Shown here piece after piece: positions 5,013 to 33,641 of a stretch of DNA of 38,942 bases. Under the pieces are notes generated by a model. It saw only the letters and a program-made list of their open reading frames with translations. It did no database searches and was not told where the DNA came from. The DNA is taken from NCBI GenBank assembly GCA_021442595.1, contig JABUST010000071.1, positions 1 through 38,942 of the forward strand. The letters run 5' to 3'. The stretch comes from Lachnospiraceae bacterium. GTDB lineage: Bacteria > Bacillota > Clostridia > Lachnospirales > Bianqueaceae. Position 1 is the stretch's first letter. The number at the start of each line of letters is the position of its first letter. The translations under genes were made by a program, and so were the position numbers.

Positions 5013-6077
5013 ATGAAAGATTTTTCAGTGCTGGACAGAATTACGGAAGAGTACAGGAGCAAGGGTTACTTCCCCTCCGCTGTAATCTCTGTGTTCGATG
5101 ATAAGAATACGCTTTACAGAAAGGCCTATGGGGAAAACCTTCTGCCGGACGGCACCATATCAGCGGTGGATGAACGAACGGCCTTTGATATGGCCTCCTG
5201 CACCAAGATCTGCACCTCCACCCAGATTCTGCTGCTGATCGATGAAGGAAAGCTTCGGCTGGAGGACCGTATTACCCGGATCCTTCCGGAAATCAAAAGC
5301 CGGAAAAATCTCTATGCCCGGCTGCGCTCCGTCACCATATACCAGCTGCTGACCCATACCTCCGGTATCCTGGACTGGTATCCTTTCTATACACAGAAGG
5401 GAAAAGATTTCTTTGACGTGTTCGAATCCTTCATCGGCAACACGGAGATCGTGGACGGCATGGAATATTCCGATATGAACTACATGCTGCTGGGTCTGGT
5501 CATTGCCAAAGTGAAGGGGAAACCTCTGGATGCCTGTCTGGAGGATCTGAGAATCGCTCTGGGAGCCGGAAGACTGGCCTACAGAATGGAGCAGGGGCAG
5601 GACAGAGACAATATGGCTCCTTCCTGCTATGGTAACTCCATTGAGGAACGTATGGTGGCCCAGAGAGGGCTCAGCTTTGAAGGCTGGCGCAGTAAGGATC
5701 AGCCGGTCATTGGGTGCAACGACGGTAATACCCATTATTTCTTTGATGATGTGGCAGGGCTGGCAGGCATCAGCGCAGAGGCAGATGCTTATGAGAGACT
5801 TTGCCGCCTGTATCTCACCACGGAGTCACCTCTGCTGCTGCGGTCCATGACAGAGCAGGAGCCGGAACGGGGTCTGGGATGGCAGGTGGGAGAAAATCTG
5901 TATCCGGAAGGCTGCGGCCACACAGGTTTTTCCGGCCCCTGGATCTATGTGTGCCGAAAGCACAACTTCGGAGTGGTAACTTTGGTAAACCGGCTGGCTT
6001 ATCCCACGGAGCACGGCACAAACACCGGTGACTACCGCAGAGCCATAGCGGCTGCGGTTCACGAAATGATGAAATAA
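5013..6077 (+). CDS. Serine hydrolase (beta-lactamase/penicillin-binding-like, class C fold)
   Basis: FDMASCTKICTSTQ (SxxK: SCTK), MEYSDMNYMLLG (YxN-like: YSD), GLGWQVG, GHTGFSGPWIYV (HTG motif). RBS gggaggaagag upstream. Confidence 0.85.
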   Translation: MKDFSVLDRITEEYRSKGYFPSAVISVFDDKNTLYRKAYGENLLPDGTISAVDERTAFDMASCTKICTSTQILLLIDEGKLRLEDRITRILPEIKSRKNLYARLRSVTIYQLLTHTSGILDWYPFYTQKGKDFFDVFESFIGNTEIVDGMEYSDMNYMLLGLVIAKVKGKPLDACLEDLRIALGAGRLAYRMEQGQDRDNMAPSCYGNSIEERMVAQRGLSFEGWRSKDQPVIGCNDGNTHYFFDDVAGLAGISAEADAYERLCRLYLTTESPLLLRSMTEQEPERGLGWQVGENLYPEGCGHTGFSGPWIYVCRKHNFGVVTLVNRLAYPTEHGTNTGDYRRAIAAAVHEMMK

Positions 6078-6187
6078 GCAGAGATTTTGTTGAAATAGTT
6101 ACAGAGCCATTACAAATTTGGCGTAGATATTTCGAATTGTTTCTGATAAAATACACATATCTGCAAAAAAGGCAACTATAAGCAGGC

Positions 6188-6209
6188 GTCCCGGATCTAT
6201 GTCCGGGAC
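6188..6209 (+). promoter_or_regulatory. Perfect 8-bp hairpin in the 5' leader of the large surface protein gene
   Basis: GTCCCGGA-tctatg-TCCGGGAC, 45 nt upstream of ATG 6255. Confidence 0.6.
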
Positions 6210-6254
6210 CGGAAACAATGACGGGAGAGTTATATCCGTAACGGGGATAACACT

Positions 6255-9200
6255 ATGCTGGATCTTAAGAAATCACTTGCATTTGTCGTAGCCTTTGTTG
6301 TTGCACTGAGCTGCGGGCAGTGGCTTAGGACACCGGCAAGGGCCTCCGCGACATATTCATTCACGGTCACAGATGACCGGGGCTTTGACATAGACTGCAC
6401 CACCGATCCGGTGGAGATCATCGTGGAAAAATACGATGAAACTGCGGATTCCTACGTGGATGCCGGTTGGGGAAGCCCTGCAGTGGAGGGAAACACCCTT
6501 ATCTTTTCACCCTCTGAAATCATTCCTGAGGGAGAGGAATACTCCTTCCGGGTGACAGCCCCCGGGGGTTATACAGCCCTGACTTCGGGAGGCACCTTGA
6601 CTTCCGGGACCACGAACACTTCTATCGTACTTCAAAGCACCGCTTCGCCGGTGAAGGATTTTGAATTCTGTTTTTCTATTGTCGGAGACGAGGGAAACAC
6701 CCTGATGGACCCCCAACCGGAATTTGTAACAGTTATTGCGAATTTTAAAGGAAACGAATTTACCGGTACCCTATCTGAAAGCAGTACCGAAGGATATACC
6801 CTGTTTACTTTTGATGAAGGACAGCTTCCCATTTATGAAGGAGAGACTCTTGACAGCCTGACAGTGAAGGCCGCAGGCTACCTTCGGGAGGTGATGGGTC
6901 CCCTTGTTCTGAATGAAAATTCTGTTTTTGAGCTGACAGATCATACTCTTATGAGCCGGGTCAGTCTGGTTCCTGTTGTGGAGGAGATCTCCGTGACCTA
7001 CGGAGAGACTATCTCCGGCATCAGCAATCTGTTTTCTTTCTCCATTCCGGAAAGAACCGATAAAATGAAGGATGTTCCCTATGACGGAGCCCTGACTTAT
7101 TATGCAGATCAGACCTTAATAGAGGGAGATTCTCTGCAGATGACCGGAGCCAACCGGGAGATGACCTCCATTGCAGCCGCGGCCTCCCAGACGGATATGT
7201 TTGCAGGAGCCCGGGTTCAGGTGCCAATCATCCTTCAGCCTAAAGCTCTGGCAGGTGCCGACTTTGTTTTTGTTATTGATTCAGCTCGCAAGACCTACGA
7301 TGGCACCACAGATGCTTATGTATCCGGTCATCTGGAAAATGCAGAGGGGAAAAATGCCCTTCTTCCGGGAGATTCCATTACTTTTACAGCCCGGGTGGTG
7401 ACCTCCGGAGCCAATGTGGGCACCTATTATCTGAGTATTTCCCCCGGCAGCGTGACCTGGGGCGGAGATATTGCCTATTACAGCGGTTATGATGCCCGGA
7501 ATATTCCCGTGGCCTTTTCTGTGCTGCCCCTGGCGGTAACGGTGAATGCATCTGAAGCCGTTGCCATGTACGGCTCTCCGGAATGGGGGGCCCTGAAGGA
7601 GGGCAAGCTTCCGGAATCCTGGACTCCCGGGACTTTGATCTCTCTGGAGGGAGGAGGAACCTCTCTGGCCGCTGAACTGGCGGCCCTGGATCTGAGTTCC
7701 CTGGTGCAGCTGTCTGTGATGGATCCGCAGCTGGCGGTGAATGCCTATAAAGATGTAGGCGTTACCTCCGGCGCTCTGCAGTTTACCCTTACGGGCAAAA
7801 GTATTTCGAATTTTACTCTGGTCCCGGGAACTCCGGGAAATATAGCCATTACCTCTCCCATTGTGACTGATGACGGCGGTCTGTGGAAGCAGGTGATGGT
7901 GGATCCTGCCTATTCAAATGAGGACAAGGGGTACTATGTCCATCCGGAGGGGGTCATCTATCTGGCTGAATCCGGAAGAGTTCACCTGACAACAGCTCAA
8001 GGCTCTGACTTTGTGACAGTTTCTCTGGCGGACAGCGTCGGCGCCATGGGCTCCGCAGCGGAGGGCTCCCGTCCTCCCTCTCGTGTGCATCTGGAAACAG
8101 CCCTGGGCACAAGGACAGATGCGGATCCCTTAACCGAAGGAGCGCAGGATAACATGATTCCGGAGGGAGCCCTGGTCATTGATGGGACTGCCCCGGCAGT
8201 AAGCTTCAACGAATGCGGAGCCTGGTCCCCCTATGTTAAGGCCGGGGATCTTCCCTGGGCGGTGGCTTCCGCATTTACTGTCAGTGTGTCCGACGCCCAA
8301 AGCGGTGTCAGCGCTGCATGGTATACGATTCTTTCTGTGGATCCTCAAGGGGATAAGACTCTGGCTGAACTGGCAGCCGGGGCTTCCTGGTCAGCCCTTT
8401 CGGGAGACGGAAGCATCTGTTTGCCGGATTCTCCCGGATATTATGCGGTTTTGGTGCAGTGCGCAGACCGGGTGGGAAACATCTCCACGGTGGCCTCGGC
8501 CGGATGTATAGTGGACACTGCGGCCCCCATCATCTATGTGCAGGGCCTGGGTAATGATACCCATTATAAAGGCGAGGTCTTTTATTCCATCACCGTACAG
8601 GATCCTCGATCCTCCGGTTCCGGCGGACAGGGACTTTTCAGCCCCGCAGCCGGATTGGAAACTCTGGAGGTCTGCATCTCTGTAGACGGAGTTAATAAGC
8701 CCTATGGTTCTCTGCAAATAGACAGCATCGGATACACCGGATCCTTCCTGCTTACGGCGGAAGATCTGGACGCACTTCTTGGCTCCGGCAGTCAGAACCC
8801 GGGAGCCGAGGGCGATAAGCGTGGAGAAGCCCTCAGCTTGAGCGCTGCCGTCCCCGCCTATGCGGACAGCGACACCGTGTTGGTGACTGTCATCGCCACG
8901 GACAAAGCAGGAAACCGGTCTGCATTCAGCAGAAGAATCTGTCTGGATGCCACGGCGCCTGCGGTCAGCCTGTCGCCTCCGGATCTCACTGCAGAAGCAG
9001 GGCCTTCTCTAACGATCTCTGTAGAAGAAAAGCATTTTTCCGAGGAGAACTTTGTCTACTCCCTTGATCTGGACGGAAAACCCATGACAAACCTGCCTGC
9101 CCTTCAGTGGATGCAGGAAGGAGATGTGTACAAGGCGGTCATTCCCCTGGAGAAGGACGGATATTACAGCCTCTCCTACAGCTGCTCCGATCCCGCAGGC

Positions 9201-12087: not shown

Positions 12088-13764
12088 ATGGATCAATACG
12101 AGCTTGAACGAAAGGCGCTGTACTACAAAGCCACCCAGTGCTACCGGCGCCGGGATAATCAGAGCCATGAGGAGGGTCTCTACTATCTGGAGCAGGCCTC
12201 TTCTCTGGGAAGCCCTGAGGCCTATAAGCTGCTGGGCATCCTGTATACCAGCGGACAGTATGAACCCTTCCCTGCCAGAAGCATGGAGCGGGCTGTTAAA
12301 TGCTACCGGAAAGCTGCGGAGCTGGGAGACGCGGAGGCTATGTACTGGCTGTCTCAATGTTATGAGATGGGCGCAGGCACAGACCTGGATCCCGGACAGG
12401 CAGCTCTGTGGCGTCAGATGGCTGTGGAAGCAGGCTTTGAAACAGAGGAAGAAGACGTGGCACCCGGAGCTGCTTCTGCAGCTAAGCCGAAGGCTCAGCC
12501 GGAAGGCAGGGAGGCGAATTCTTCCGCTCAAGCAGCCGTCAGCCCGGGAAAGACCGGCGCTCAGACAGGAAAAAGTCAACCAGACCCTATGGCCCAGACT
12601 GCGCCGGTTCGGCAGGCACAGGGGTCTGTTCCCGGCCGCATTTCCTTGAAAACAGAGCCCGTCCGGGTGGCGGAAATGAAGCCGGAGCCGGTGAAGAGGA
12701 TCTCCGGAGAGAAGGCAGAGAAGGATTTCCTGGAAGCCGACAGGGCCTATGAGGAAGCTGTGGCTAATGAGTGCAGTGAACGCATGAAGAAGATCCCCCG
12801 GAAGTGGGCTCTGGTATACGGAAGCTTTACTTTGGAGGCTGTGGTCATTTTCGTACTGCTGCTGTTTTTGCTCATGCGTCTGGCGGTGAAGGATTCGGCC
12901 GGGTCCGGAATCTTCTGGGTCACGGCGGCAGTCCTGGGCCTTGTTCTCACCGGGCTGGGATGCCTGGCCGGGCGGTCCAAGGGCCTCAGGGAAGCCGGAG
13001 AGACCAATGCCTACGAAAATTCCGCCTTCTGCAAAGGCTTCAGAGGGGCAGAACCTCCCAAGAAGGAGCAATCCCTGCCTTACCGCACCTACCGAGGAAT
13101 GCGCCGGAGATATATGGCCGCCAGGATCGGAAACCCGGTGGAGCTCTCCCGCCTGAATGAGGGAGCCCCGAGCCGCAAAGATGGTCTTATGATTCCAGGA
13201 TGGATCTTTACCACCAGGAGAGGCTTTGCCAGACCGGACTTTGTCATCCTGACCCAAAAGGCCTTCTATGTGGTGGCAGAGCTGGAACTGGAGGGACGTA
13301 TCAGCGGCACCCGCAGCGACGCCCTGTGGACATTGCGCTGGGAAAGCGCCGACAAGCGGGGGGGCATGGGAGGACAGTATGTCCGCACCCTGCCGAATCT
13401 ACTTGAAGAGAATGATTTTGCACTGCAGACCGTGAAATCCGACCTGCAGCTGCTGGATCCTTTGCCCATTGAGAACATTCCTTACTACAACGTGGTCATG
13501 TTCCCCCGGGAGCTGGATATCTCCGGGCTTCAGCTGGAGGACACCCCCGGCAGCGTGATGCTGATTCAGGGAGGGGCCGATCAGCTCATCAGCGCCATAG
13601 AGGCGAAGGATGCTCTGCTGCCCTGCCACGGAGTATCTCCGGAAGGGCTGGAGAGGCTGCTGAAAGCGCTGGCCGAAAAGCAGTATGTCCGGCGTGAGGA
13701 GAGAAAAGACGGGGCCAGGTCCTCCTACCGGGCTCTCAACCGGGCAGAATTCAAGGATAAATAA
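12088..13764 (+). CDS. Sel1-repeat membrane protein with C-terminal NERD-like domain
   Basis: Sel1-like repeats (AVKCYRKAAELGDAEAMYWLSQCYEMGAG), two TM helices around 12,800-12,975, C-terminal PDFVILTQKAFYVVAELELEGRISG resembling NERD. Confidence 0.7.
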   Translation: MDQYELERKALYYKATQCYRRRDNQSHEEGLYYLEQASSLGSPEAYKLLGILYTSGQYEPFPARSMERAVKCYRKAAELGDAEAMYWLSQCYEMGAGTDLDPGQAALWRQMAVEAGFETEEEDVAPGAASAAKPKAQPEGREANSSAQAAVSPGKTGAQTGKSQPDPMAQTAPVRQAQGSVPGRISLKTEPVRVAEMKPEPVKRISGEKAEKDFLEADRAYEEAVANECSERMKKIPRKWALVYGSFTLEAVVIFVLLLFLLMRLAVKDSAGSGIFWVTAAVLGLVLTGLGCLAGRSKGLREAGETNAYENSAFCKGFRGAEPPKKEQSLPYRTYRGMRRRYMAARIGNPVELSRLNEGAPSRKDGLMIPGWIFTTRRGFARPDFVILTQKAFYVVAELELEGRISGTRSDALWTLRWESADKRGGMGGQYVRTLPNLLEENDFALQTVKSDLQLLDPLPIENIPYYNVVMFPRELDISGLQLEDTPGSVMLIQGGADQLISAIEAKDALLPCHGVSPEGLERLLKALAEKQYVRREERKDGARSSYRALNRAEFKDK

Positions 13765-13790: not shown

Positions 13791-16394
13791 TTGGCTAACA
13801 TTCTGCAAAAGTTATTTGGATCTACCAGTGAAAAGGAAGTAAAGAGACTGCAGCCTCTGGTCAACAAGGTCGTGGCTATGGAATCTGCCATGGCTGCCCT
13901 GACGGATGAGGAGCTGCGGAATAAAACTGCTGAGTTCAAGGCAGCCCTGGCTGATGGAAAGACCCTGGATGATATCCTTCCGGAGGCCTTCGCCGTGGTG
14001 AGGGAGGCAGCCTGGCGTGTGCTGGGGCAGAAGCATTACCCGGTTCAGATCACCGGAGGCATCATTCTGCACCAGGGACGCATCGCCGAGATGCGTACCG
14101 GTGAAGGTAAGACGCTGACATCAACTCTGCCTGTATATCTGAATGCGCTGGAGGGCAAGGGTGTTCATGTGGTCACCGTAAACGACTATCTGGCAGCCCG
14201 TGACTCCGAATGGATGGGTGCTGTGCACCGGTTCCTGGGGCTCACCGTGGGATGTATCCTGAACAGCATGAACAACGATGAGCGCCGGGAGGCCTATAAG
14301 TGCGACATCACCTACGGCACCAACAACGAATTCGGTTTCGATTACCTCCGTGATAACATGGTAGTCTATGAAAATAAGCTGGTGCAGCGGGAGCTCCATT
14401 TTGCGGTCATCGATGAGGTGGACTCCGTCCTCATTGACGAGGCACGTACTCCTTTGATTATTTCCGGACAGAGCGCCAAATCCACTTCTCTCTATCAGCA
14501 GGCAGATCTGCTGGCTTCTCAGCTTAGGAAGGGCCGCATCGTAGGCGATACCAGCCGCATGGCCCAGCTGATGCAGGAGGAAGTGAAGGAAGAGGGCGAC
14601 TTTATCGTGGATGAGAAGGAGAAGAGCTGCACTCTGACAGCCCAGGGCGTCAAAAAGGCGGAATCCTTCTTCCATGTGGACAACCTGTCCGACCCGGAGA
14701 ACGCAGAAATCCTGCATCATATCAACATCGCTCTGAAGGCCCATTATATGATGGCCCTTGACAAGGACTATGTCATCCGTGAGAACCAGATCGTTATCGT
14801 GGATGAGTTCACCGGACGTCTGATGCCCGGTCGTCGATACAGCGACGGTCTCCATCAGGCCATTGAAGCCAAGGAAAAGGTGGAGGTGAAGCGGGAGTCC
14901 AAGACTCTGGCCACCATTACCTTCCAGAATTTCTTTAATAAATACACCAAGAAGTGCGGTATGACCGGTACGGCCAAAACGGAAGAGGTGGAGTTCGAGG
15001 AGATCTACGGCATGGATGTTGTGGAGATTCCCACGAATCGTCCTGTGGCCCGGGTGGACCATCCGGACATGATCTACCGCACCCAGGTGGAAAAGTTCCG
15101 GGCCGTCATCCGGGACATTAAAGAGTGCCATGAAAAGGGTCAGCCGGTACTGGTGGGCACCATCTCCATCGAGACCTCCGAGATGCTCAGCAAGCTGCTG
15201 AAGCGGGAGGGCGTACAGCACAACGTGCTGAATGCCAAGTTCCACGAAAGAGAAGCTGAGATCGTGGCTCAGGCCGGACAGGAGGGGGCAGTGACCATTG
15301 CCACCAACATGGCAGGACGTGGTACGGATATCAAGCTGGGAGAAGGTGTGGCAGAGCTGGGCGGATTGAAGATCATCGGCACCGAGCGCCATGAATCCCG
15401 CCGCATCGATAATCAGCTCCGCGGCCGAAGCGGACGTCAGGGAGATCCGGGTGAATCCCGCTTCTATGTGTCCATGGAGGACGATCTGATGCGCATTTTC
15501 GGCGGCGAGCGCATGCAGAAGGTGCTGGAGACCTTCCGGTACCCCGAGGACCAGCCCATTGAAGATAAAATGTTCTCCAAAGCCCTGGAGAGCGCCCAGA
15601 AGAGGGTAGAAGAAAATAACTACGGTATCCGTAAACATCTGCTGGAATATGACCAGGTCATGAACGAGCAGAGAGAGACCATCTATGCCGAGCGCCGCCG
15701 CGTTCTGGCAGGAGAGAACCTGAAGGACGCCATTCTGCATCAGGCAGACGATCTGGTGGCTTCCATAGTGATGGAAGGTACCGCCGGGGCCAAATATCCG
15801 GAAGAATGGAACATGGAGCTTATTAACACAGAGCTTCGCCGGGTCATTCCCATTCGGGGAAATATCTCCGTGGAGGGAGAAGAGAAGACCATTGATCAGG
15901 AGGCCCTCATCACCCGCCTGCAGGATAAGACCCGGGAGCTGTATGAGGCCAAGGAGCAGGAGGTCACGGAGAATTCCGAAGGCAAGGTGGATATGCGTGA
16001 GGTTGAACGCATGATTCTGCTGCGCACTGTGGACAGCCTGTGGACAGAGCATCTGGACATTATGGATCAGATGCGCCAGGGTATCGGCCTTCAGGCCTTC
16101 GCCCAGAAGAATCCCCTGGATGAGTACCGTCTCATTGGCTTTGACATGTTCGAGGAGCTGAATGACAACATCATGCGCAACACCATCCGCAGCATCTTCT
16201 CCGTTAAGGTGAACAAGAACGAGGAAGTGGAGCGCAAGGAAGTGGCCAAGAACATTTCCACTAACCGGGGCGGCGACAAGAGCGCAGCCAAAAAGCCTGT
16301 GAAGCGGGCCGAAAAGAAGGTGGGAAGAAATGATCCCTGCCCCTGCGGAAGCGGAAAGAAATATAAAGCCTGCCACGGCATGTATGAAAACTAA
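13791..16394 (+). CDS. secA: Preprotein translocase ATPase SecA (TTG start)
   Basis: [51 protein letters not shown]-terminal SEC-C zinc motif [20 protein letters not shown] ggagaggag before TTG. Confidence 0.98.
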
Positions 16395-23052: not shown

Positions 23053-24018
23053 ATGGAAAAGTATTTTGACTTGCTACCCACCCCTAGTTTTAAGCTTGGT
23101 TCTTGCATCGAAGGAAGGATTGCAGCCGCTGTAGAGTTCTTGACAGAAGGAAGAAAAAAGGCAGAAGATTGTTGTGAAATATTGCGATATTGTACATTGG
23201 TAACTAAAAAATGCGACAAGAGTAATTGCGGAATTGACCCTTGGTTTTTGCAATGTACTGAATTTATGCTTGATGATGGTTCTTTATTAACATCAGAAAA
23301 AGGAGAATCTTTGTTCAATTATCTTAACGCGGATGAACACATCCTGTGTGAGACTATTATAATTGCTCCTATGTACCTCCTACCCGCAATAGAAAGGGCT
23401 TTTGAAAATAGGACGGTTGTCATTGTCTGGATTAATCGGGCAAAATATAAATATGAGAATGATCATGAAAAGAGATTACAACTTACCCATTCGTGGCTGT
23501 TAAAAGGTATCGATACCGTCAGAAAGAGGGTTTGGATTAGTGGGCAGATGGTAGATGGACCGATTAATCCTGTTTCCTTTGAGGAGTTAATGGAGGTATA
23601 TGCAGGTAAAATTACGATTATAAAAAAAAGAGAAGAAAACACTCACGTTATGATTCCGGATACCTTTTTAGCGAATAAAGATAGATTAAGAATAAGTATC
23701 AATACAATATCCCATGTTCTTCATGTTTGTCAAACAGTGACTAGCGAAAAAGAATACAAGAAGCAAATAGAGGGGGTGGTGCTTGACTGCAGATATAAGG
23801 TTAAACCTTATGTTATGATGCTGCTTATGGATAAAGAATTGCAAGAGATACTGGATGTGGATACGATTGAACTTAGTTTGTTTTCAGAGCAATTGGATAA
23901 ACTAATCCTGTTGATGATATGGAATAAGGAAGGAGAGAGACAGATAACACAGACAACTGAGGTTATTGCTTCTATGGTTAAATTCGCTGACCGAATGAGT
24001 GCAAACATGGAGGCGTAG
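23053..24018 (+). CDS. Uncharacterised 321-aa protein, first gene of the RiPP operon
   Basis: RBS aaggagatgataac-ATG; Cys-rich segment CCEILRYCTLVTKKCDKSNCGIDPWFLQC; position in operon. Confidence 0.8.
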   Translation: MEKYFDLLPTPSFKLGSCIEGRIAAAVEFLTEGRKKAEDCCEILRYCTLVTKKCDKSNCGIDPWFLQCTEFMLDDGSLLTSEKGESLFNYLNADEHILCETIIIAPMYLLPAIERAFENRTVVIVWINRAKYKYENDHEKRLQLTHSWLLKGIDTVRKRVWISGQMVDGPINPVSFEELMEVYAGKITIIKKREENTHVMIPDTFLANKDRLRISINTISHVLHVCQTVTSEKEYKKQIEGVVLDCRYKVKPYVMMLLMDKELQEILDVDTIELSLFSEQLDKLILLMIWNKEGERQITQTTEVIASMVKFADRMSANMEA

Positions 24019-24025
24019 AATTGAG

Positions 24026-24829
24026 ATGAGCTGCTTGAGTAACATGCTTCCAAAGGAATATGAAGATATTCAAAAAAGGCTTACGCTGGATTTAAATTAT
24101 ATCATAAAAATAGTGCTTGCAAATGACCTGATAAAACCAAACTCTTGTATCTTGGATATTGGGTGCGGCACGGGAGACCTGTGTGAGGAGCTGCAGCGAT
24201 GTAGGGACGACATTACAGTGTTTGGCATAGACAGCAATGCTAAGCTATCTGCGTATTTTGAACAGCGCAGTACAAAGCATGTACGTTTTAGCATCAGTGA
24301 TGCTGATAATCTTCCGTTCGGTAATGGCTCGATACATTTGATTTGTGCACGTATGGTATTATCCCTGTTATCACCGGAGGCGAGAAAGGGGATATATTCC
24401 GAAATAAGGAGACTTTTGACAGAAGAAGGGAGCTTTGTTGTATATGAAAACATGGATTCAGAATTAAGAACAGCTCAACCGATTAGATCGCAAGGAAGCG
24501 TTTTGGTAGCTGCTGCGAAAATGAGACGATATTTGCCGGGAGATAGACTTGCAGAGATTATGCAGGAGCTACAAGCATTATTTGATGTAACTGCACAAGT
24601 TATTATCAAAGATTCCTATAATCCGGGGAACGGGGCATTAGAAGACTATTACTGTTTTTCTGACGAAGAGAAAAAGAACCTGAAAGACAGTGTAGTCGTC
24701 CGTTCCGGTTGTGTAGATGCTGAACTGTTGTTGAACTATGACAACGAATTAAGGAAGTACCTACAGGGTGGAGGGTATGCAATGGGATCGCAAATTATTC
24801 TTGTATGCAAAGAAAGGAAGAGTATATGA
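24026..24829 (+). CDS. Class I SAM-dependent methyltransferase
   Basis: Motif I CILDIGCGTGDLCEEL; VFGIDSNAKL; FSISDADNLPFGNGSIHLICARMVLS. ATG overlaps downstream: ATGA junction with the radical SAM gene. Confidence 0.88.
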   Translation: MSCLSNMLPKEYEDIQKRLTLDLNYIIKIVLANDLIKPNSCILDIGCGTGDLCEELQRCRDDITVFGIDSNAKLSAYFEQRSTKHVRFSISDADNLPFGNGSIHLICARMVLSLLSPEARKGIYSEIRRLLTEEGSFVVYENMDSELRTAQPIRSQGSVLVAAAKMRRYLPGDRLAEIMQELQALFDVTAQVIIKDSYNPGNGALEDYYCFSDEEKKNLKDSVVVRSGCVDAELLLNYDNELRKYLQGGGYAMGSQIILVCKERKSI

Positions 24830-26148
24830 GTAAATCTCCATCCAGGTTTAATTGCTTCCGTCAAGTCTCTGAGGATTCCTTCTTGGTACTTAATACATTA
24901 AGCAGAAAGCTTGTTCTTTTAAGAGGATTAAAGAATCCTGATGAGTTGATGCCCATCTTTCAACGACAGAGTGAGCAGACATGTCATAAACTCTGCATGG
25001 ATGGTATCATCTGCGATCGAGATGAAGAATGGAATCAAGTTTTATATGAACTTCGTAAAAGAGAGTTTGGAAACGATGTAGTATCAGTAACAGTTCTTCC
25101 GACTATGGCATGCAATTTCAGATGCAGATATTGTTATCAGGATGGCACTGGAAATATGATACGGGATGATGTACTAGACGCATTAGGAAAATACATCAGA
25201 AAAAATGTCCGTAATTGTCGAGTCTTTAGGCTGAATTGGTTTGGCGGGGAACCTACACTATGTATAGATAAGGTTGTTCGATTTACTGAAAAAGCTAGGA
25301 GTCTGTGCGTTGATAATAAAGTTCTCTTCACCTCTCACATGACCACAAATGGTTATGGGCTGGATGCTGAAACATTTATGAGATGTGTTTCTGCGGGAAT
25401 CAGGTATTATCAGATAACAATTGATGGGCCGGAGGAAATACATAACTACCAAAGGCCACATGTCACAAATAAGGATTCATTCCAAGTGGTCATTAATAAC
25501 CTCAAGCAGATTAGTCAAATACCTCGTAATCACTATTTTGAAATTGGCATTCGCATAAATGTGTCGGCCAAAAGCGCTCCGCTTATGGATGATTTCATTG
25601 ACTCCTTGGCAAGAGACTTTGGAGACGATAGACGTTTTGTGTTTGTATGGCAATGGGTTAGAGACTGGGGAGGAGAGCGTATTGCAGATGATAAAGAAAA
25701 CTTGATTGGTGATGCACAAATTTGTACCATGCTATATGAACTTTCCGTGGAAAAAGGGCTTAGCTGTGCAACATGGTTGATGAATTCCGGAGATGACGGA
25801 GGATGCGATGCAAAGATGGAGGGTTCTTTCACAGTAGACCCGGAGGGGAATGTGTATAAGTGCTCTATGCATCTTGACGATCCCATTAATAGAGCCGGAA
25901 ATTTGCATTCTAATGGGGCCATTCATTGGAATTCTTCAATTGTTCCGCAATGGCATAATGGTGAAGTAAAGGTAGAAGAAAAGTGTGAAACCTGTCCGTT
26001 ATTTCCAATATGTCGGATAACTAGTTGTCCTTATCGGGAGATTAAGACCGGAAGCAACATTTGTATGGAGTATAGAGATATGATACAAGCTCACATGCTG
26101 ATGCTGCATCGGCAGAATAAATCTGAAGTAATATGTTTGGAGGTATGA
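24826..26148 (+). CDS. Radical SAM/SPASM peptide maturase
   Basis: CxxxCxxC in TMACNFRCRYCYQDG; FGGEPTL-like NWFGGEPTLCID; SPASM-type C terminus with CETCPLFPIC...CPYR...CMEYR. Confidence 0.93.
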   Translation: MSKSPSRFNCFRQVSEDSFLVLNTLSRKLVLLRGLKNPDELMPIFQRQSEQTCHKLCMDGIICDRDEEWNQVLYELRKREFGNDVVSVTVLPTMACNFRCRYCYQDGTGNMIRDDVLDALGKYIRKNVRNCRVFRLNWFGGEPTLCIDKVVRFTEKARSLCVDNKVLFTSHMTTNGYGLDAETFMRCVSAGIRYYQITIDGPEEIHNYQRPHVTNKDSFQVVINNLKQISQIPRNHYFEIGIRINVSAKSAPLMDDFIDSLARDFGDDRRFVFVWQWVRDWGGERIADDKENLIGDAQICTMLYELSVEKGLSCATWLMNSGDDGGCDAKMEGSFTVDPEGNVYKCSMHLDDPINRAGNLHSNGAIHWNSSIVPQWHNGEVKVEEKCETCPLFPICRITSCPYREIKTGSNICMEYRDMIQAHMLMLHRQNKSEVICLEV

Positions 26149-26150
26149 CA

Positions 26151-26381
26151 ATGAATGCAACAGAAAAGCTTTTAAGAGTATTTGAGTCATGCGGCATTTT
26201 TATAGTGGAAGACGAATGGAACGATGACTTAAATTTAGATTCGCTGCAATATGTATCCGTGTTGGTTAGGATAGAAGATGTGTTTTCATCTGAAATACCG
26301 GATGTATACATCTTTGAAAATACTTTGCACTCCTTTCAGGATTTTAGGGAATTAATCAAAGAGATTGAGAGCTCTAAATGA
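26151..26381 (+). CDS. Acyl carrier protein-like protein
   Basis: 76 aa acidic protein with DDLNLDSLQYVSVLVRIEDVF, matching the carrier-protein DSL phosphopantetheine site; RBS ttggagg. Confidence 0.75.
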   Translation: MNATEKLLRVFESCGIFIVEDEWNDDLNLDSLQYVSVLVRIEDVFSSEIPDVYIFENTLHSFQDFRELIKEIESSK

Positions 26382-26413: not shown

Positions 26414-26506
26414 ATGAGAAGACTTCGCAAAAAAGGAAGAATCCTAAGGAAAGTCAGACTCTTTGGAGAAGGCCATGGCGGAAACTGCTCCTGCAGCGGT
26501 AACTGA
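26414..26506 (+). CDS. Putative RiPP precursor peptide, 30 aa (alternative in-frame start at 26378 gives 42 aa)
   Basis: aaaGGAGGtaatc-ATG; MRRLRKKGRILRKVRLFGEGHGGNCSCSGN*. Basic N-terminal leader, Gly-rich hinge, Cys/Ser C-terminal core; located among radical SAM, ACP, S8 protease, YcaO and exporter genes. Absent from the supplied ORF track because of size. Confidence 0.8.
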   Translation: MRRLRKKGRILRKVRLFGEGHGGNCSCSGN

Positions 26507-26512
26507 CGGGAA

Positions 26513-26540
26513 CCCCGGAGAAGGATACTCTTTTCCGGGG
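26513..26540 (+). promoter_or_regulatory. Strong hairpin between the precursor gene and the protease gene (attenuator or mRNA-stabilising element)
   Basis: CCCCGGAGAAGGATACTCTTTTCCGGGG; about 11-bp stem allowing one G-T wobble; no U tract follows. Confidence 0.7.
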
Positions 26541-26566
26541 CTACATTTGGGGTTATGGAGGCATAT

Positions 26567-28405
26567 ATGAAAACAGTAGTTATTATTGACTCGGGTATCA
26601 ATGTTGCTCATCCCGCATTTACAAAAAAAATCTTTAATATAGAGCATTATACAATCGAGGATGAGCATAAGGAAATGGACATGAGAAAAACTTCTGACCC
26701 AAACGTATTGTGTTTGCACGGGACGGGTGTTTTCTTCATTCTTTCAAGATATGAGGCTGCTTCAAAGTTTATAAGTGTCAATGCATTCAAAAATGACGAG
26801 TGCTCGGAAGATGGACTGCTATTTGCCCTAGAATATATACGAGATAATATCCCCGCAGATATGATAGTTTTGAGTGCCGGAATAACACAATGTGAACAGA
26901 TCAAACGGTTATCTCTTGTTTGTGAGCAACTTGATCATAGAGGAACAATTATCATAGCAGCCTATTCGAATGAAGGTTCACTAACATATCCTGCTGCATT
27001 GGATAGCGTAATCGGTGTTGATTATAGTCTTAGTATCTTTTCTGGCGATGAGTATCAATTGGTTGAAGATTCCCCAATCAATATTCGCGGAATAGGGCAG
27101 AAGCAGCGACTACCAGGAGATAAGGGACGTTTTTCATATCAAGGTGGGGCTAGTTTTGTGGTTCCTCATATTGCAGGGCACTTGCTGCGTGAAATGGAAA
27201 ACAACGAGGCAATAAGTGATCGAAAGACGGCCTTGGACTTCTTAAGAATACATGCTGACAAAGTAATTACAACTGCACAATCAATAAGGAAAGAGAAATT
27301 TATTACTACAAACAAGAAGGCGATAGTTTTTCCTGTGGAAAAAGAAACAACCCCTTTGTTTGTTTTTTCCGACTTGATTGACTTTAGTATTGTTGAGGCC
27401 CTGGATATCCGAATGTCCGGAAATTGCGAGAGAAAGATCAGCGAGGTAATTGATATTCCGGTTAAGAATGACTTGATTGTCAAAGCAATGGAATTATATA
27501 GAATTCCCGATGATATAGATTTGGTTATTGTCGGACATACCAATATGTATGATGCAATAACAAGACGCAAAATCAGAGAGTGGATCATGAAAGAAACTGA
27601 TAATAAGAACAGGAGGTTCTATTTTTACGATCCGTTCTGCTTTTCCGATCAAGAAAGAGTACAACTGGAAAGAAAAGAAAATTGTATTTTTCCGTTTGTT
27701 ACAGTCGCAAATGTGCCGAAAAACCGATATGGGAAATTACATATACCGGGAGCTCCCGTTCTTGGAATATTTGGCACGGGACCTAAGCAAGGAAAGTTTA
27801 CATTACAACTGAAAATGCGGAAGGAGATGATTGGCAGAGGGTATAAGACGGCAAGCCTTGTCACAGAACCTGCTGGTGAACTTCTGGGAATGGAAGCTGC
27901 AATAGCAATGGGCAGCAATTCTACATTCGAGATTAGCGGATATGAAGCGATTTGCTACATAAATGAACAAATCAGAATGATGGATTTTGAAGAACCCGAT
28001 ATTATCATGGTAGGGGCACAGTCTCAATCTGTTCAAAATGGATTCGGTAATACAAGCTTGTATAATCAACGGCAGCATGAACTTATTCTTGCAACACAAC
28101 CTGATGCATATATTCTATGTGTCTCATGCGAAGATGAGTATGAATATGTACTACGGACAATATCCTATTTGGAGTCAATCAACAATGCTAAAGTCCTATG
28201 TTTAATGGTTTTTCCTCTTGTTTATTCTAATGTTGACGGATATTTGACCGGAAAGCCAAAGAGAGTCAGTGAACAAAAGCTGAACAATTATATTGAACTG
28301 CTTGGCGAGGTTTGTCAGCTTCCCATCTTTGTACAAGATAAAGAGGAAAGCATTCGGAACGTAATTGACATTATTGAAGGAGAGTTTGCGGAAAATGAAT
28401 GTTGA
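26567..28405 (+). CDS. Subtilisin-like (S8) protease fused to a BioD/DUF1611-like P-loop domain
   Basis: S8 triad candidates: VVIIDSGIN (Asp), CLHGTGVFF (His), YSNEGS (oxyanion Asn), GGASFVVPHIAG (Ser). C-terminal half: GIFGTGPKQGKFTLQLKMRKEM (GTx4GKxT P-loop spacing). Start 26567 has GGAGG at 26557. Confidence 0.82.
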   Translation: MKTVVIIDSGINVAHPAFTKKIFNIEHYTIEDEHKEMDMRKTSDPNVLCLHGTGVFFILSRYEAASKFISVNAFKNDECSEDGLLFALEYIRDNIPADMIVLSAGITQCEQIKRLSLVCEQLDHRGTIIIAAYSNEGSLTYPAALDSVIGVDYSLSIFSGDEYQLVEDSPINIRGIGQKQRLPGDKGRFSYQGGASFVVPHIAGHLLREMENNEAISDRKTALDFLRIHADKVITTAQSIRKEKFITTNKKAIVFPVEKETTPLFVFSDLIDFSIVEALDIRMSGNCERKISEVIDIPVKNDLIVKAMELYRIPDDIDLVIVGHTNMYDAITRRKIREWIMKETDNKNRRFYFYDPFCFSDQERVQLERKENCIFPFVTVANVPKNRYGKLHIPGAPVLGIFGTGPKQGKFTLQLKMRKEMIGRGYKTASLVTEPAGELLGMEAAIAMGSNSTFEISGYEAICYINEQIRMMDFEEPDIIMVGAQSQSVQNGFGNTSLYNQRQHELILATQPDAYILCVSCEDEYEYVLRTISYLESINNAKVLCLMVFPLVYSNVDGYLTGKPKRVSEQKLNNYIELLGEVCQLPIFVQDKEESIRNVIDIIEGEFAENEC

Positions 28406-30095
28406 TTCCTGGAACCGTAAGGATAAAAGACCTGAGGACACAGTTAAGACTATTGTAGAATTGCTCGAAAAACATGGAATCAAGACGAAAGTAGTCAATG
28501 AGAATAACTATAAGGATTTGTGGTATTCCTGCAGAGTAGAGATTGAAGGACTCCCTTCTGTTGGAGCGAACGGAAAAGGAGTAACCAGAGAGTACGCATT
28601 AGCCAGTGCATATGGAGAGTTTGTGGAGAGATATCAATCCGGTTTTATGATTGATAAGCTATTTCGGTGTAAATTAAAAGCCAAAAGACCAAGCTCACAT
28701 AAGTTCTCGATAGAAGACATCCTGTTTTTCTTTCCTAATGTGTTCGTAAATGCATCTCAGGAAGAGATATTGGCATATTTTAAGGCAGAAACGGATGAAT
28801 ACATGTTTTTGTCTGACAAAGGGACCAACCGTAGGATATTGCCACGCAGATTGGTGGATATTTTGTGTGGTTCTAATGGATTGGCAGCCGGAAATACTAC
28901 AGAAGAGGCTGCTGTTCAGGGTACTGCTGAATTATTGGAGAGACATGTGCTCAGACAAATCTATAGCAGTTCGGGGGGATTATTTCCGGTATTAAGGAAA
29001 AAAAGCCTGCAAAATTTGAAATCATATAAGTTGATAGAAGCTATTGAACAAAAAGGATATCATGTGTTTGTTAGAGATTGCACTCTTGGAAATAATGTCC
29101 CTGTTTTAGGAGTGTTGATTTTTGATGCGTCCTACACCAAATATTATTTTAAATTGGGTGCGGAAATAGATGCGGATATATCCATTCAACGTAGTATCAC
29201 GGAAGTGTTTCAGGGATTGGATTTTAATTATTCCTTCAGATTTAAAATGCGGTCTTTATTTAAGGGAGAGGATGCGGAGGATATATTAGTTGGATGTAAG
29301 CCAGAGAAAGAATATGTTCGATCTCTGATTGACGGAAGCGGACTGTTGCCCAGGTCATTTCTTTTTGAAACGGAGGAGATAGACTCGCTACCATCGGTTT
29401 TTAAAATGGAGATAACTACCAATAAAGAGGCATTGAAAGAAATGAGTATGATGGTAGAACATTCTTTCGGAGAGCTATATTATGCAAAACTGAACACGAC
29501 AGATTTTCCGACGGTTAGAGTTCTTATTCCCGGGATTTCCGATGTCTTTTATACTGCAGGAGATGACGTTTTAAAGCTATTAAAAACCAATGGCGATATA
29601 GTGGAAATGTTTCAGAACCAGGAAGTTAATCATCCCAAAATGCTGGAATTATTGGACATAACAAAGCAATATATGAGTAATTCTTATTCACATGAGTTAA
29701 GAAATATAGTTGGAATAGTTTTAGACGATGAATTTTGGGGAAATGCAGTTCAAAGTTTCTGGCTGTTTTATGCTTTTTTGTCTATGCACCTTGGAGACAG
29801 AGCGCGCGTAAACCATGCTTTGACGGAATTGAATTCACAGAACCTTTTTGAGGAGAAGGATTTTGCTGAGATTTCAATTTTAATTAATGGTATTTTGCAA
29901 GGGAAAAGTCGAGAGGAGTGTCTGCATGTGATAGACAAGATTCTTTGCAGACCATCAAAATGGGAGAAGCTGATTTTTTATATAAAGGATAATGGCTTCG
30001 AAGGGATAGGTGGCGCTTGCAGCTCCTGTATTCTTCAGAAAATATGTTTAGTTGACAGATGGAAAAAACGTTCGCCAGAAAAGGAGGTCAAATGA
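28395..30095 (+). CDS. YcaO domain protein
   Basis: GVTREYALASAYGEFVERYQSG; SNGLAAGNTTEEAAVQGTAELLERHVLR; SITEVFQGLDF, all characteristic YcaO ATP-binding segments; C-terminal CSSCILQKIC. Confidence 0.92.
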   Translation: MNVDSWNRKDKRPEDTVKTIVELLEKHGIKTKVVNENNYKDLWYSCRVEIEGLPSVGANGKGVTREYALASAYGEFVERYQSGFMIDKLFRCKLKAKRPSSHKFSIEDILFFFPNVFVNASQEEILAYFKAETDEYMFLSDKGTNRRILPRRLVDILCGSNGLAAGNTTEEAAVQGTAELLERHVLRQIYSSSGGLFPVLRKKSLQNLKSYKLIEAIEQKGYHVFVRDCTLGNNVPVLGVLIFDASYTKYYFKLGAEIDADISIQRSITEVFQGLDFNYSFRFKMRSLFKGEDAEDILVGCKPEKEYVRSLIDGSGLLPRSFLFETEEIDSLPSVFKMEITTNKEALKEMSMMVEHSFGELYYAKLNTTDFPTVRVLIPGISDVFYTAGDDVLKLLKTNGDIVEMFQNQEVNHPKMLELLDITKQYMSNSYSHELRNIVGIVLDDEFWGNAVQSFWLFYAFLSMHLGDRARVNHALTELNSQNLFEEKDFAEISILINGILQGKSREECLHVIDKILCRPSKWEKLIFYIKDNGFEGIGGACSSCILQKICLVDRWKKRSPEKEVK

Positions 30096-31891
30096 TGAAG
30101 CCTATAAAAGGGTATTTTGCTCAACTAAAGAGGTTGCTGATGTTGATTAAAAAGAAGCAGCCCGGATTTATGGTGTCAGGAACGCTTTATGCACTGTTTA
30201 CAGGGATAACAGCCTTCCTATCTGTAAGAGGAGCGGGAATCGTTTTGGACTACTTACAAAATCAAAATGGCAATAACCCGTTTCCGATGTGGGTTCTGAT
30301 ATGCTGGGCAATTGGTGTATGTAACATTGCCTTTTGGGGATCCAAATATGAGAGTAGGATATTTGGGTTGTTTTTAAAATTTGTTGAAGATGTATCCAGA
30401 ACCAGTATGAGAATTAAGTACGCTTTGACCATGGATTCGGATACATTAAGCCTGGCTAATAAAGCCCAGACCGCTGTTTGCGGGACAGGAATAGGAATCC
30501 ACAAAACGTTAACAGGGTTATCTGAGATTGTTCAGAATTTGATGGGATGCATTCTGACGGGTACAATATTAGGAGAATGTGGTCTTTTGTTACCCTGTTT
30601 TTGCTTTTTTATGATTCTTGTTGTAGGTTACGGAAACAGAAAAATTGCAGAAATAACGGTGCGATATAAGGAAAAATCCAGCGAGAATCAGCGAAAGAAA
30701 TACAGAATGCACATGATTATGTCAGATTTTTCCTATGGAAAAGATGTGAGACTTTTAGATTGCGCTCCATGGCTGATGAGAAAACAGTTAAAAATCAATG
30801 AGGAAGGGATTGCGCTTAAGATTGCTGAGAATAAGGAAAAAATTGGTTATCAGATTTTGGTTGTAGCATTGATTTTTCTTCGGGAAGCAGTGGCGTTATT
30901 GGCTTTTATCATTCTATGGATTAACGGGAGGATATCAGCGGGGCAATTTGTTGCGCTTTTATTGGGCTTGAGAGCTTTTTCTGTCTATGGAGAAGGATTG
31001 TTAAAAGCAATAAATGATGTGGCTGCTGAGCAGGAATATGTGAAAAGCTATTTTGATTATGTTTCTTTGGCGGATGAAGAAACGGAAAGGACCCCAAGGG
31101 AATATAGCACACCCAAAATCGAGTTTAAAAATGTTACTTTTCGTTACCCGGGAACAAGTGAAAATGTGCTTGCTAATTTTTCTATGGTTATCCATCCCGG
31201 TGAAAAAATAGCCTTGGTGGGTTTAAACGGAGCAGGGAAAACTACGATTGTTTCCTTATTATGCAGATTTTTTGATCCTGACGAGGGTGAGATTCTTATT
31301 GACGATGTGCCTGTTTCAAATGGTTCTTTTGCAGAACATATGGATAGAATTGCGTCTGTTTTCCAGGATTCTGACCTATTTGCCTTTTCTCTTTGGAGCA
31401 ATATTACAATGAAGGAAGAAAAAGATCATTCTCCGGAAGAAGAAGAGAAGGTCAAAGCTATCTTGAGACAACTTAAGCTTACTGACAAGATCAGCGAAGA
31501 TGAAAATCTGGTTTTAAGACAGGTAACAAAACGCTTTGATGAGCACGGTTTCAATTTCTCCGGGGGAGAAAAATGTAAATTAGCATTGGCAAGGGCAATT
31601 TATAAAAATGCGGGAATCGTCTTGCTGGATGAACCGACGGCGGCACTGGACCCCATTGCAGAGGGAGAACTCTACAGTCTGTTTGATGAACTATGCTGCG
31701 GAAAAACGATGGTTTATATTTCACACAGAATGGCCAGTACAAAATTCTGTGACAGAATTCTATACCTGGAGCAAGGCAGAGTGATTGAGGAGGGCAGCTT
31801 TGGTTCCTTGATGGAATTGCATGGTAGGTTTAGTAATTTATACGAAACACAAAGCAAGTATTACCAGGAGGAACTTGCATATGAAAAATAA
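30092..31891 (+). CDS. ABC transporter, fused TM and ATPase (half-exporter 1)
   Basis: Walker A GLNGAGKTT, signature FSGGEKCKLALARA, Walker B IVLLDEPTAALD, H-loop ISHRM; ATGA overlap with the YcaO stop. Confidence 0.93.
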   Translation: MMKPIKGYFAQLKRLLMLIKKKQPGFMVSGTLYALFTGITAFLSVRGAGIVLDYLQNQNGNNPFPMWVLICWAIGVCNIAFWGSKYESRIFGLFLKFVEDVSRTSMRIKYALTMDSDTLSLANKAQTAVCGTGIGIHKTLTGLSEIVQNLMGCILTGTILGECGLLLPCFCFFMILVVGYGNRKIAEITVRYKEKSSENQRKKYRMHMIMSDFSYGKDVRLLDCAPWLMRKQLKINEEGIALKIAENKEKIGYQILVVALIFLREAVALLAFIILWINGRISAGQFVALLLGLRAFSVYGEGLLKAINDVAAEQEYVKSYFDYVSLADEETERTPREYSTPKIEFKNVTFRYPGTSENVLANFSMVIHPGEKIALVGLNGAGKTTIVSLLCRFFDPDEGEILIDDVPVSNGSFAEHMDRIASVFQDSDLFAFSLWSNITMKEEKDHSPEEEEKVKAILRQLKLTDKISEDENLVLRQVTKRFDEHGFNFSGGEKCKLALARAIYKNAGIVLLDEPTAALDPIAEGELYSLFDELCCGKTMVYISHRMASTKFCDRILYLEQGRVIEEGSFGSLMELHGRFSNLYETQSKYYQEELAYEK

Positions 31892-33641
31892 CACAACGCT
31901 TCAGCTGCTTAAGTTATGTAATAGAGCAAACCCGCGTTTTATTTTCACGGTTGCGTTTAAATCGGTTCTGGAGGCAGGAATCATTCTGATATGGACTTAT
32001 CTTCCATCAAGAATGGTTGATAGTTTTATTCGCAAGGATATACAGTCTATTGTTTTAATGGGAATTATAATGACATTAGGAACGGCAGTCCTGAGGGTTT
32101 TAGGTGAGTTTCTGAAGAATAGGATTGATCTTATGAACAAGGAGATCAAAAATCATATGGATCTTCAGCTTGATCAGAAGATTATGGACATCCACTTTGA
32201 AATGGCTGAAACACCGGCTATTATGGATCTGAAGGAAAAAGCGGTATGGACGTTTGAAAACTATGGCGGGGTTGCATACTTTGTGGAGTATATCATTTCT
32301 GCCATAACATCATTCTGTCTTGTTTCCGGTTTTTATGTAATTCTGTTTTCCACTGCAAATCCCATAATCTCTGCGATGGAAATCATATATGGGTTGACCG
32401 TTATCGGTGCAGGTGTTCTGTGGAGAAAAACGGGAGTGTTCTACTGGGACCGAGTGTCTTCTCTTAATAGAAGATTTTTATATTTGACCTGGGAAATAGC
32501 TCATAACTATAAGGTTGGTAAGGATATCCGTGTTTATTCCGCTGAAAATATGATTGGGGAACAGTTGGATAAAATGGCAGATTCATGGGATAAGGAGGAA
32601 AAGAAATATGTGTATACGCGAAAACATTCTGAGGGAGTGCTGCTATTGCTCCACATTGTGCTGTTGGGTACATCAGTTTTCTTGTTAATGAAAGGAAGGG
32701 CTCCTTTTAGTGTTTGCACATTGTGTGTAATGCTGATTACACAAATTTCAGACCAGCTGAAGCTTATGGTCAGGAATATATCCGATGTTATGCAGATGAG
32801 TTCTTATGGGCAGTATTTGCTTGATTTTCTCAACCTTGATAAAGGTTCGGATAGGAGTGAGAAGGATTCTTTGCTTAGTTGTGATGCAGACAAAGCTTAT
32901 ACTCTTACAGTAGATAATGTTTCTTTCAGGTACCCCGGAGAAGAAAAATATGCAATCAGCGATATCAGCTTTGAAATAAAAAAGGGAGAGACAGTGGCCT
33001 TTGTCGGGAAAAACGGATCCGGAAAGTCAACGGTTGTCAAGCTGATTTGCCGGCTCTATAGACCTACAAGCGGGAGAATACTGTTTAACGGGGTAGATAT
33101 AGAAAAGTATTCGGTAAGTGATTATCGGAAAATTCTCGGGGTATTATTCCAGGATTTTCAGCTTTTCCCGGCGACCATAAGAGAAAATGTTGTACTTGGT
33201 CGGGAAGAGAATGAAACGTTGCTGCGGTTCATATATGAAACATACGGAATTGACGGAATTATATCCAAAACCTCATTAGGAGATAAGACTAATTTAGATG
33301 TTTCTTTTGACGAAAACGGAGTTGAGTTGTCGGGAGGACAGAAACAGGATATAGCCGTGGGACGATGCTATTACAAAAAACCGGCAATGGTTATTCTGGA
33401 TGAGCCCAGCTCGAACCTGGATGCCATAGCGGAAGAAAAGCTGTATAATCACATTTTGGAAAATAACGGAAAGCAGGGAACAATCTTTGTGTCACACAGA
33501 CTGTCCGGCTGCAAGCTGTGTGACAGAATTCTGGTATTCGACAAAGGACTTATTAAAGAGACAGGGAGTCACAACGAGTTAATGAGTCTGGACGGAATAT
33601 ATGCTGCTCTGTACAGGGAGCAGATGAAGCTGTATGCGTAA
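31881..33641 (+). CDS. ABC transporter, fused TM and ATPase (half-exporter 2)
   Basis: Walker A GKNGSGKST, signature LSGGQKQDIAVGR, Walker B MVILDEPSSNLD, H-loop VSHRL; overlaps the previous stop; RBS ccaggaggaac. Confidence 0.93.
   Translation: MKNNTTLQLLKLCNRANPRFIFTVAFKSVLEAGIILIWTYLPSRMVDSFIRKDIQSIVLMGIIMTLGTAVLRVLGEFLKNRIDLMNKEIKNHMDLQLDQKIMDIHFEMAETPAIMDLKEKAVWTFENYGGVAYFVEYIISAITSFCLVSGFYVILFSTANPIISAMEIIYGLTVIGAGVLWRKTGVFYWDRVSSLNRRFLYLTWEIAHNYKVGKDIRVYSAENMIGEQLDKMADSWDKEEKKYVYTRKHSEGVLLLLHIVLLGTSVFLLMKGRAPFSVCTLCVMLITQISDQLKLMVRNISDVMQMSSYGQYLLDFLNLDKGSDRSEKDSLLSCDADKAYTLTVDNVSFRYPGEEKYAISDISFEIKKGETVAFVGKNGSGKSTVVKLICRLYRPTSGRILFNGVDIEKYSVSDYRKILGVLFQDFQLFPATIRENVVLGREENETLLRFIYETYGIDGIISKTSLGDKTNLDVSFDENGVELSGGQKQDIAVGRCYYKKPAMVILDEPSSNLDAIAEEKLYNHILENNGKQGTIFVSHRLSGCKLCDRILVFDKGLIKETGSHNELMSLDGIYAALYREQMKLYA

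Follow-up and report, generated by a model that had tools for sequence, protein, structure and literature searches.

What does a single chain carrying both a subtilisin-like protease and a P-loop domain do for a peptide encoded beside it? The question is raised by a 612-residue protein encoded at 26567–28405 (+) in a 38,942-nucleotide stretch of DNA from a Lachnospiraceae bacterium (the whole stretch is called the window, and all coordinates are those of its + strand unless another locus is named). The open reading frame lies exactly where the first-pass annotation had placed it, and its start at ATG 26567 is well supported by an ideal Shine-Dalgarno sequence, GGAGG, at 26557–26561 (+); a second in-frame ATG (26555) is upstream of the GGAGG. 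Matches to NF049966 and to the subtilisin profile define an S8 (QhpE-like) domain at residues 1–235 (26567–27271), and a TIGR04066/DUF1611-fold domain was recognised by profile, AlphaFold model mdf3cb06107d1 and Foldseek at residues 250–604 (27314–28378). By sequence and predicted structure alike, the one chain combines an S8 site with a P-loop domain of the DUF1611/DgcN fold, both of them intact. A full-length AlphaFold model built from five fusions (pLDDT 72) resembles both subtilisins and DUF1611 structures, and D8, H51, N135, S196, G403, T404, Q408, G409 and K410 are invariant in five fusions collected without a motif filter. Our best explanation, taken as a whole and held with moderate confidence, is that the protein serves a RiPP cluster as a maturation factor with two domains, acting in the cytosol.

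The genes around the fusion encode, in order, a 321-residue protein without a family (23053–24018), a class I SAM methyltransferase (276 residues; 23999–24829), a radical SAM/SPASM peptide maturase (447 residues; 24805–26148), an acyl-carrier-like protein (82 residues, with the carrier motif DSL; 26133–26381), a precursor peptide and, after the fusion, a YcaO enzyme (28365–30095; PF02624, E 1.4e-38; 576 residues from the first start codon, with ATG 28395 also possible) and two ABC exporters (30059–31891 and 31821–33641). Neither exporter contains a C39 domain by Pfam scan, as had been noticed at the outset, and none of the scanned cluster genes was recognised as encoding an adenylating enzyme that would serve the carrier protein. 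Among 296 genomes searched, the family of the 321-residue protein occurs solely beside the two fusions of the window genome (the second copy is at 14961–15926 of the paralogous locus, L031). Its resemblance to the BtrH-like family, which centres on an H..GxD stretch, is not significant by hhalign and is suggestive with the HMMER filters off. A match of the same protein to NleE-type methyltransferases (E 0.0076) was judged spurious. The paralogous locus also carries, at 12126–13127 and 5952–6785, a second radical SAM gene and a transglutaminase-like protein of a neighbour family; no YcaO was matched there.

The S8 half has every element of a working subtilisin site. The catalytic residues are D8 (26588–26590), H51 (26717–26719) and S196 (27152–27154), with N135 (26969–26971) as the oxyanion residue, and both the profile (subtilisins, E 1e-12) and the fold are of the subtilisin type, so that the complete active site proposed from the letters alone stands. 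Residues 4–226 match the QhpE family NF049966 (E 4.9e-17), although at 62 bits the protein falls below the curated cut-off of 165; it does show the set of traits expected of the QhpE type, namely the catalytic D/H/S, the oxyanion N and the lack of a signal peptide. Neither a signal peptide nor a propeptide was found in the fusion protein, and with the catalytic Asp already at residue 8 there is no room for either, which bears out the suggestion of a cytosolic protease. A further trait of the QhpE type is single-turnover leader cleavage on a crosslinked peptide. QhpE itself works in the cytoplasm, where this subtilisin takes the leader off a radical-SAM-crosslinked peptide ahead of its export by an ABC transporter (PMC7876137). 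This protein of the quinohemoprotein amine dehydrogenase system is the nearest characterised relative of the S8 half: it provides the best S8 profile, and the two systems share a cytoplasmic S8 domain, a radical SAM enzyme and an ABC exporter, whereas the QhpE family model spans 219 positions and lacks a P-loop half, and the window protein scores below its cut-off. The idea that the S8 part is the leader peptidase thus gains a precedent. We consider it likely, on this analogy, that the S8 half would remove the leader before export, a proposal well supported by QhpE, by exporters devoid of C39 domains and by the precursor family described below.

Residues 250–604 align with positions 1 to 356–358 of the 361 of TIGR04066 (E 8e-17), but the score of 61–64 bits misses the curated cut-off of 200 despite the near-full alignment. 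Pfam DUF1611 (PF07755) is matched at residues 396–522 with 31.5 bits against a gathering score of 25. The Walker A motif GTGPKQGKFT (residues 403–412; 27773–27802) is intact, reading G403-T-x4-G-K410-F-T. An AlphaFold model of this half from 55 sequences (pLDDT 91.1, pTM 0.91) finds its best PDB matches by Foldseek in 2g0t, 2obn and 7xrj, the last being DgcN, deposited as an N-acetyltransferase. These DUF1611 structures and DgcN rank first and are aligned across both subdomains (374–405 columns), with cyclic 2,3-diphosphoglycerate synthetase and BioD next, and a profile comparison of the C-terminal half also finds 2g0t (E 1.7e-8), in an alignment that includes the P-loop. The earlier description of a BioD/DUF1611-type P-loop is therefore right as to the GTx4GKxT motif and as to DUF1611/TIGR04066, which extends over the whole half, and has to be amended as to BioD, which is not the nearest fold. 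Both halves hence have the folds anticipated for them: AlphaFold, Foldseek and profiles give an S8 fold with its triad intact and a P-loop fold of the nucleotide-binding type. The likeness to DgcN and the other DUF1611 structures, in whole-domain fold and P-loop, is accompanied by only ~15% identity; the DgcN profile (NF041892) matches 7 of 55 C-terminal halves of relatives and does not match that of the window at E<=0.01. The substrate of DgcN is a free amino acid rather than a peptide. Since the closest folds are DUF1611 proteins, one of them deposited as an N-acetyltransferase, use of ATP should not be assumed, and the earlier idea that this half could activate, ligate or energise a step on the peptide stays a proposal.

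The notion of a one-off fusion did not survive a wider search. A genome search found fusions in three further genomes and one truncated example; a single-sequence genome scan found none, unlike the alignment-based scan, which yielded 59 loci, a few of them with one domain alone or repeating a known locus. With both search sources combined and two duplicates removed, the distinct fusion loci number 59. The window genome itself encodes a paralogous second fusion (L031), counted among the 59, and the records of the alignment-based scan span Clostridia, Paenibacillus, Bacilli, Treponema, Latescibacterota, Gemmatimonadota and Bacteroidota. Among the bearers of the fusion that can be cultured are Acetatifactor muris (L069) and Paenibacillus (L065, L076). 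The catalytic D, H and S are kept in all 54 aligned fusions, a conservation inflated because most loci came from a scan that used patterns for the P-loop and for the S8 site. Of the 26 fusions negative for the S8 pattern, 23 have D/H/N/S and three D/H/E/S, so that three of the 54 aligned proteins have Glu in place of the oxyanion Asn; Walker A is kept in 12 of the 13 fusions negative for the P-loop pattern. Above the family cut-off, a survey of the order for DUF1611 yielded few proteins other than the fusions and those of one genome, G101. Its stand-alone DUF1611-type P-loop proteins (L044 9106–10194 and L142 9564–10628) each lie near very large, multidomain open reading frames, and the L044 protein is close to an NRPS (condensation-adenylation-carrier; one large open reading frame was confirmed as such).

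Gene content was compared at the 32 loci with at least 6 kb on either side of the fusion. ABC genes are present at all 32, carrier-like genes at 29, radical SAM genes at 27, BtrH-like genes at 22 and YcaO genes at two, the window and L045. Of all the loci, L045 is most closely related to that of the window; its record is assigned to Paludibacteraceae, its neighbours look Firmicutes-like, and the contig is possibly misbinned. At a few other loci (L034, 7347–7742; L052; L083) the fusion is followed by a protein of 131–135 residues with a receiver-like look and no Pfam match. The carrier Ser is retained in 41 of 42 aligned carrier proteins, and the one protein without it (L072_13) is apparently a spurious match. 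A neighbour family of ~340 residues is found at 36 of the 59 fusion loci, and 14 of 29 sampled members match BtrH_N. BtrH of butirosin biosynthesis is an acyl carrier protein:aminoglycoside acyltransferase (PMC10318531). The window differs in that no clear BtrH-like gene was found in its genome, the resemblance of the 321-residue protein being weak.

The probable substrate is the 30-residue peptide MRRLRKKGRILRKVRLFGEGHGGNCSCSGN (26414–26506), which was recognised by its leader pattern and by a similar peptide at L045. Its early identification as the precursor is supported, and it proves to belong to a family of leader-sharing peptides. Some 30 fusion loci encode a precursor with the pattern M[KR]KLxK+...VxLY and then a short core; such peptides are short and basic, with a variable and usually Cys-containing core after the VxLY-like motif. 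A motif-free scan for precursor-like short open reading frames gave 50 in sense against one in antisense, some of the 50 being chance occurrences. The conserved-to-variable boundary, from which the proposed cut site is solely read, divides the window precursor into MRRLRKKGRILRKVRLF and GEGHGGNCSCSGN, and we infer a cut after F17. The L045 precursor, MKKLVKPRMKKVAKLYGENHGGNCNCAGA, begins with GTG and has in common with the window the core GExHGGNCxCxG. At a Latescibacterota locus whose fetched stretch contains no radical SAM match, MQKLVKRKMHYETIMPVEAY leads into a hydrophobic core of unrelated sequence; a search across whole Latescibacterota-type genomes gave radical SAM matches at the level of the genome. 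At L080 (8788, +) the precursor-like peptide continues from the shared leader into a long hydrophobic stretch, rich in Gly, that looks like an unmodified bacteriocin. The leader thus stays constant while the core chemistry varies, as expected if the protease–P-loop protein and the carrier read the leader. A 12-bp hairpin (26513–26540; z −3.2), possibly an attenuator or mRNA stabiliser, is situated after the precursor stop codon and ahead of the protease gene.

In the mechanism that we propose, the peptide would be modified first, after which the S8 half would cut off the basic leader (M-R-R-L-x-K-K ... V-R-L-F), most likely directly after the Val-x-Leu-Tyr/Phe motif, and the released core, GEGHGGNCSCSGN, would be exported. 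More tentatively, the P-loop half may bind CoA or a nucleotide and, together with the phosphopantetheine-type carrier, take part in an acyl or CoA-linked step at the freed N-terminus or close to it; leader cleavage and the carrier-linked step would then be coupled on a single chain. Carrier-linked chemistry of this sort is the probable role of the P-loop half, given the near-constant carrier with its Ser kept, the BtrH-like neighbours and the related P-loop protein beside an NRPS. A more specific version is a cut-and-cap enzyme, in which the DgcN-fold half would modify the N-terminus freed by the S8 half with an acyl group from the carrier or CoA; this we regard as speculative and on balance improbable.

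Other roles for the P-loop half have to be weighed against carrier-linked chemistry. It is somewhat unlikely, though the best of the alternatives, that this half is a nucleotide-driven switch or chaperone of the MinD or SRP-GTPase kind, passing the peptide from protease to exporter with the carrier as a docking protein. The exporter gene near every well-flanked fusion would suit such a handover, as would the P-loop NTPases TRC40, HypB, MeaB and FtsY among the lower Foldseek matches, but it is the DUF1611 structures and DgcN that lead the ranking with both subdomains matched, and a mere docking protein would not need the Ser that the carriers almost always keep. An ATP-dependent ligase following the logic of BioD, which would activate a carboxylate on the peptide or charge the carrier, might account for a carrier-adenylating enzyme not being recognised among the scanned genes and for the second place of cyclic 2,3-diphosphoglycerate synthetase and BioD in the fold ranking; we think it unlikely, as BioD aligns over ~235 columns only and with E-values far weaker than those of DUF1611. 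That the S8 half is instead a PatG-like transamidating protease, cyclising the core rather than simply cutting, is highly improbable: PatA/PagA-type maturation proteases do occur among the S8 fold matches, but the PatA/PatG profile finds a single split-type relative and misses the window protein, and the precursors, with their very short cores, show no apparent C-terminal recognition sequence in common.

Leader removal coupled to a carrier-linked step can be set beside a known type of cluster. The CLI_3235/CcpM systems, whose families are TIGR04065, 04066, 04068 and 04069, likewise combine a radical SAM enzyme, a TIGR04066 protein, an acyl-carrier-related protein, a subtilase and an ABC exporter. 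SacP23 of Paenibacillus polymyxa belongs to this type; the published precursor begins MRKLVKRSTNVGDTIEAF, and the S8 gene product 23sacH has been proposed as the protease that removes its N-terminal sequence (PMC10731318). A Roseburia cluster also carries such parts as separate genes (PMC4573289). The short SacP23 precursor, beginning MRKLVK, resembles that of the window, but the S8 and TIGR04066 proteins are separate there and fused here, and the window adds YcaO and methyltransferase genes. The family cut-offs are missed by the window radical SAM enzyme (TIGR04068, 63 bits vs 500) and carrier (TIGR04069, 17.6 bits vs 70); its peptide has no match to the TIGR04065 precursor profile, which a relative at L076 matches below cut-off and SacP23 above it. 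Walker A is broken in all sampled stand-alone TIGR04066-type proteins (e.g. GTNERTNKF) except the two of G101, the sampled split-type S8 proteins carry a P-loop-less remnant of the TIGR04066-type domain, and in two genomes (G105 and G233) the S8 domain is fused to a P-loop-less version. Because the same parts are separate in the CLI_3235/SacP23 clusters and Walker A is broken in the sampled stand-alone TIGR04066 proteins, the window system is, by its sequences, a fused, P-loop-intact sister class of CLI_3235/CcpM. On one reading the split class would descend from a P-loop-intact fusion. The broken Walker A of the split class is also what speaks most strongly against a nucleotide- or CoA-dependent step common to all; carrier-like genes persist in clusters with a broken stand-alone TIGR04066 protein (L037, L139), which makes the link to the carrier independent of the P-loop. 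The cited papers on CLI_3235/SacP23-type clusters give no tested function for the TIGR04066 and carrier proteins.

The fusion is thus a real variant of a known, uncharacterised kind of peptide maturation and not an isolated oddity. In many peptide clusters from several phyla, protease, P-loop enzyme and acyl-carrier protein occur as a set; the leader is similar where a precursor was found, and the core chemistries differ. That ~60 clusters from several phyla share the fusion, usually a carrier and, where found, a similar leader suggests a common yet unstudied peptide-finishing route across these clusters. The fused form sets the P-loop-intact lineages apart from the P-loop-broken ones and offers one purifiable protein in which the roles of protease and P-loop domain can be tested together. 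If the cut-and-cap proposal were true, ribosomal peptides would be acylated via a carrier of the fatty-acid type.
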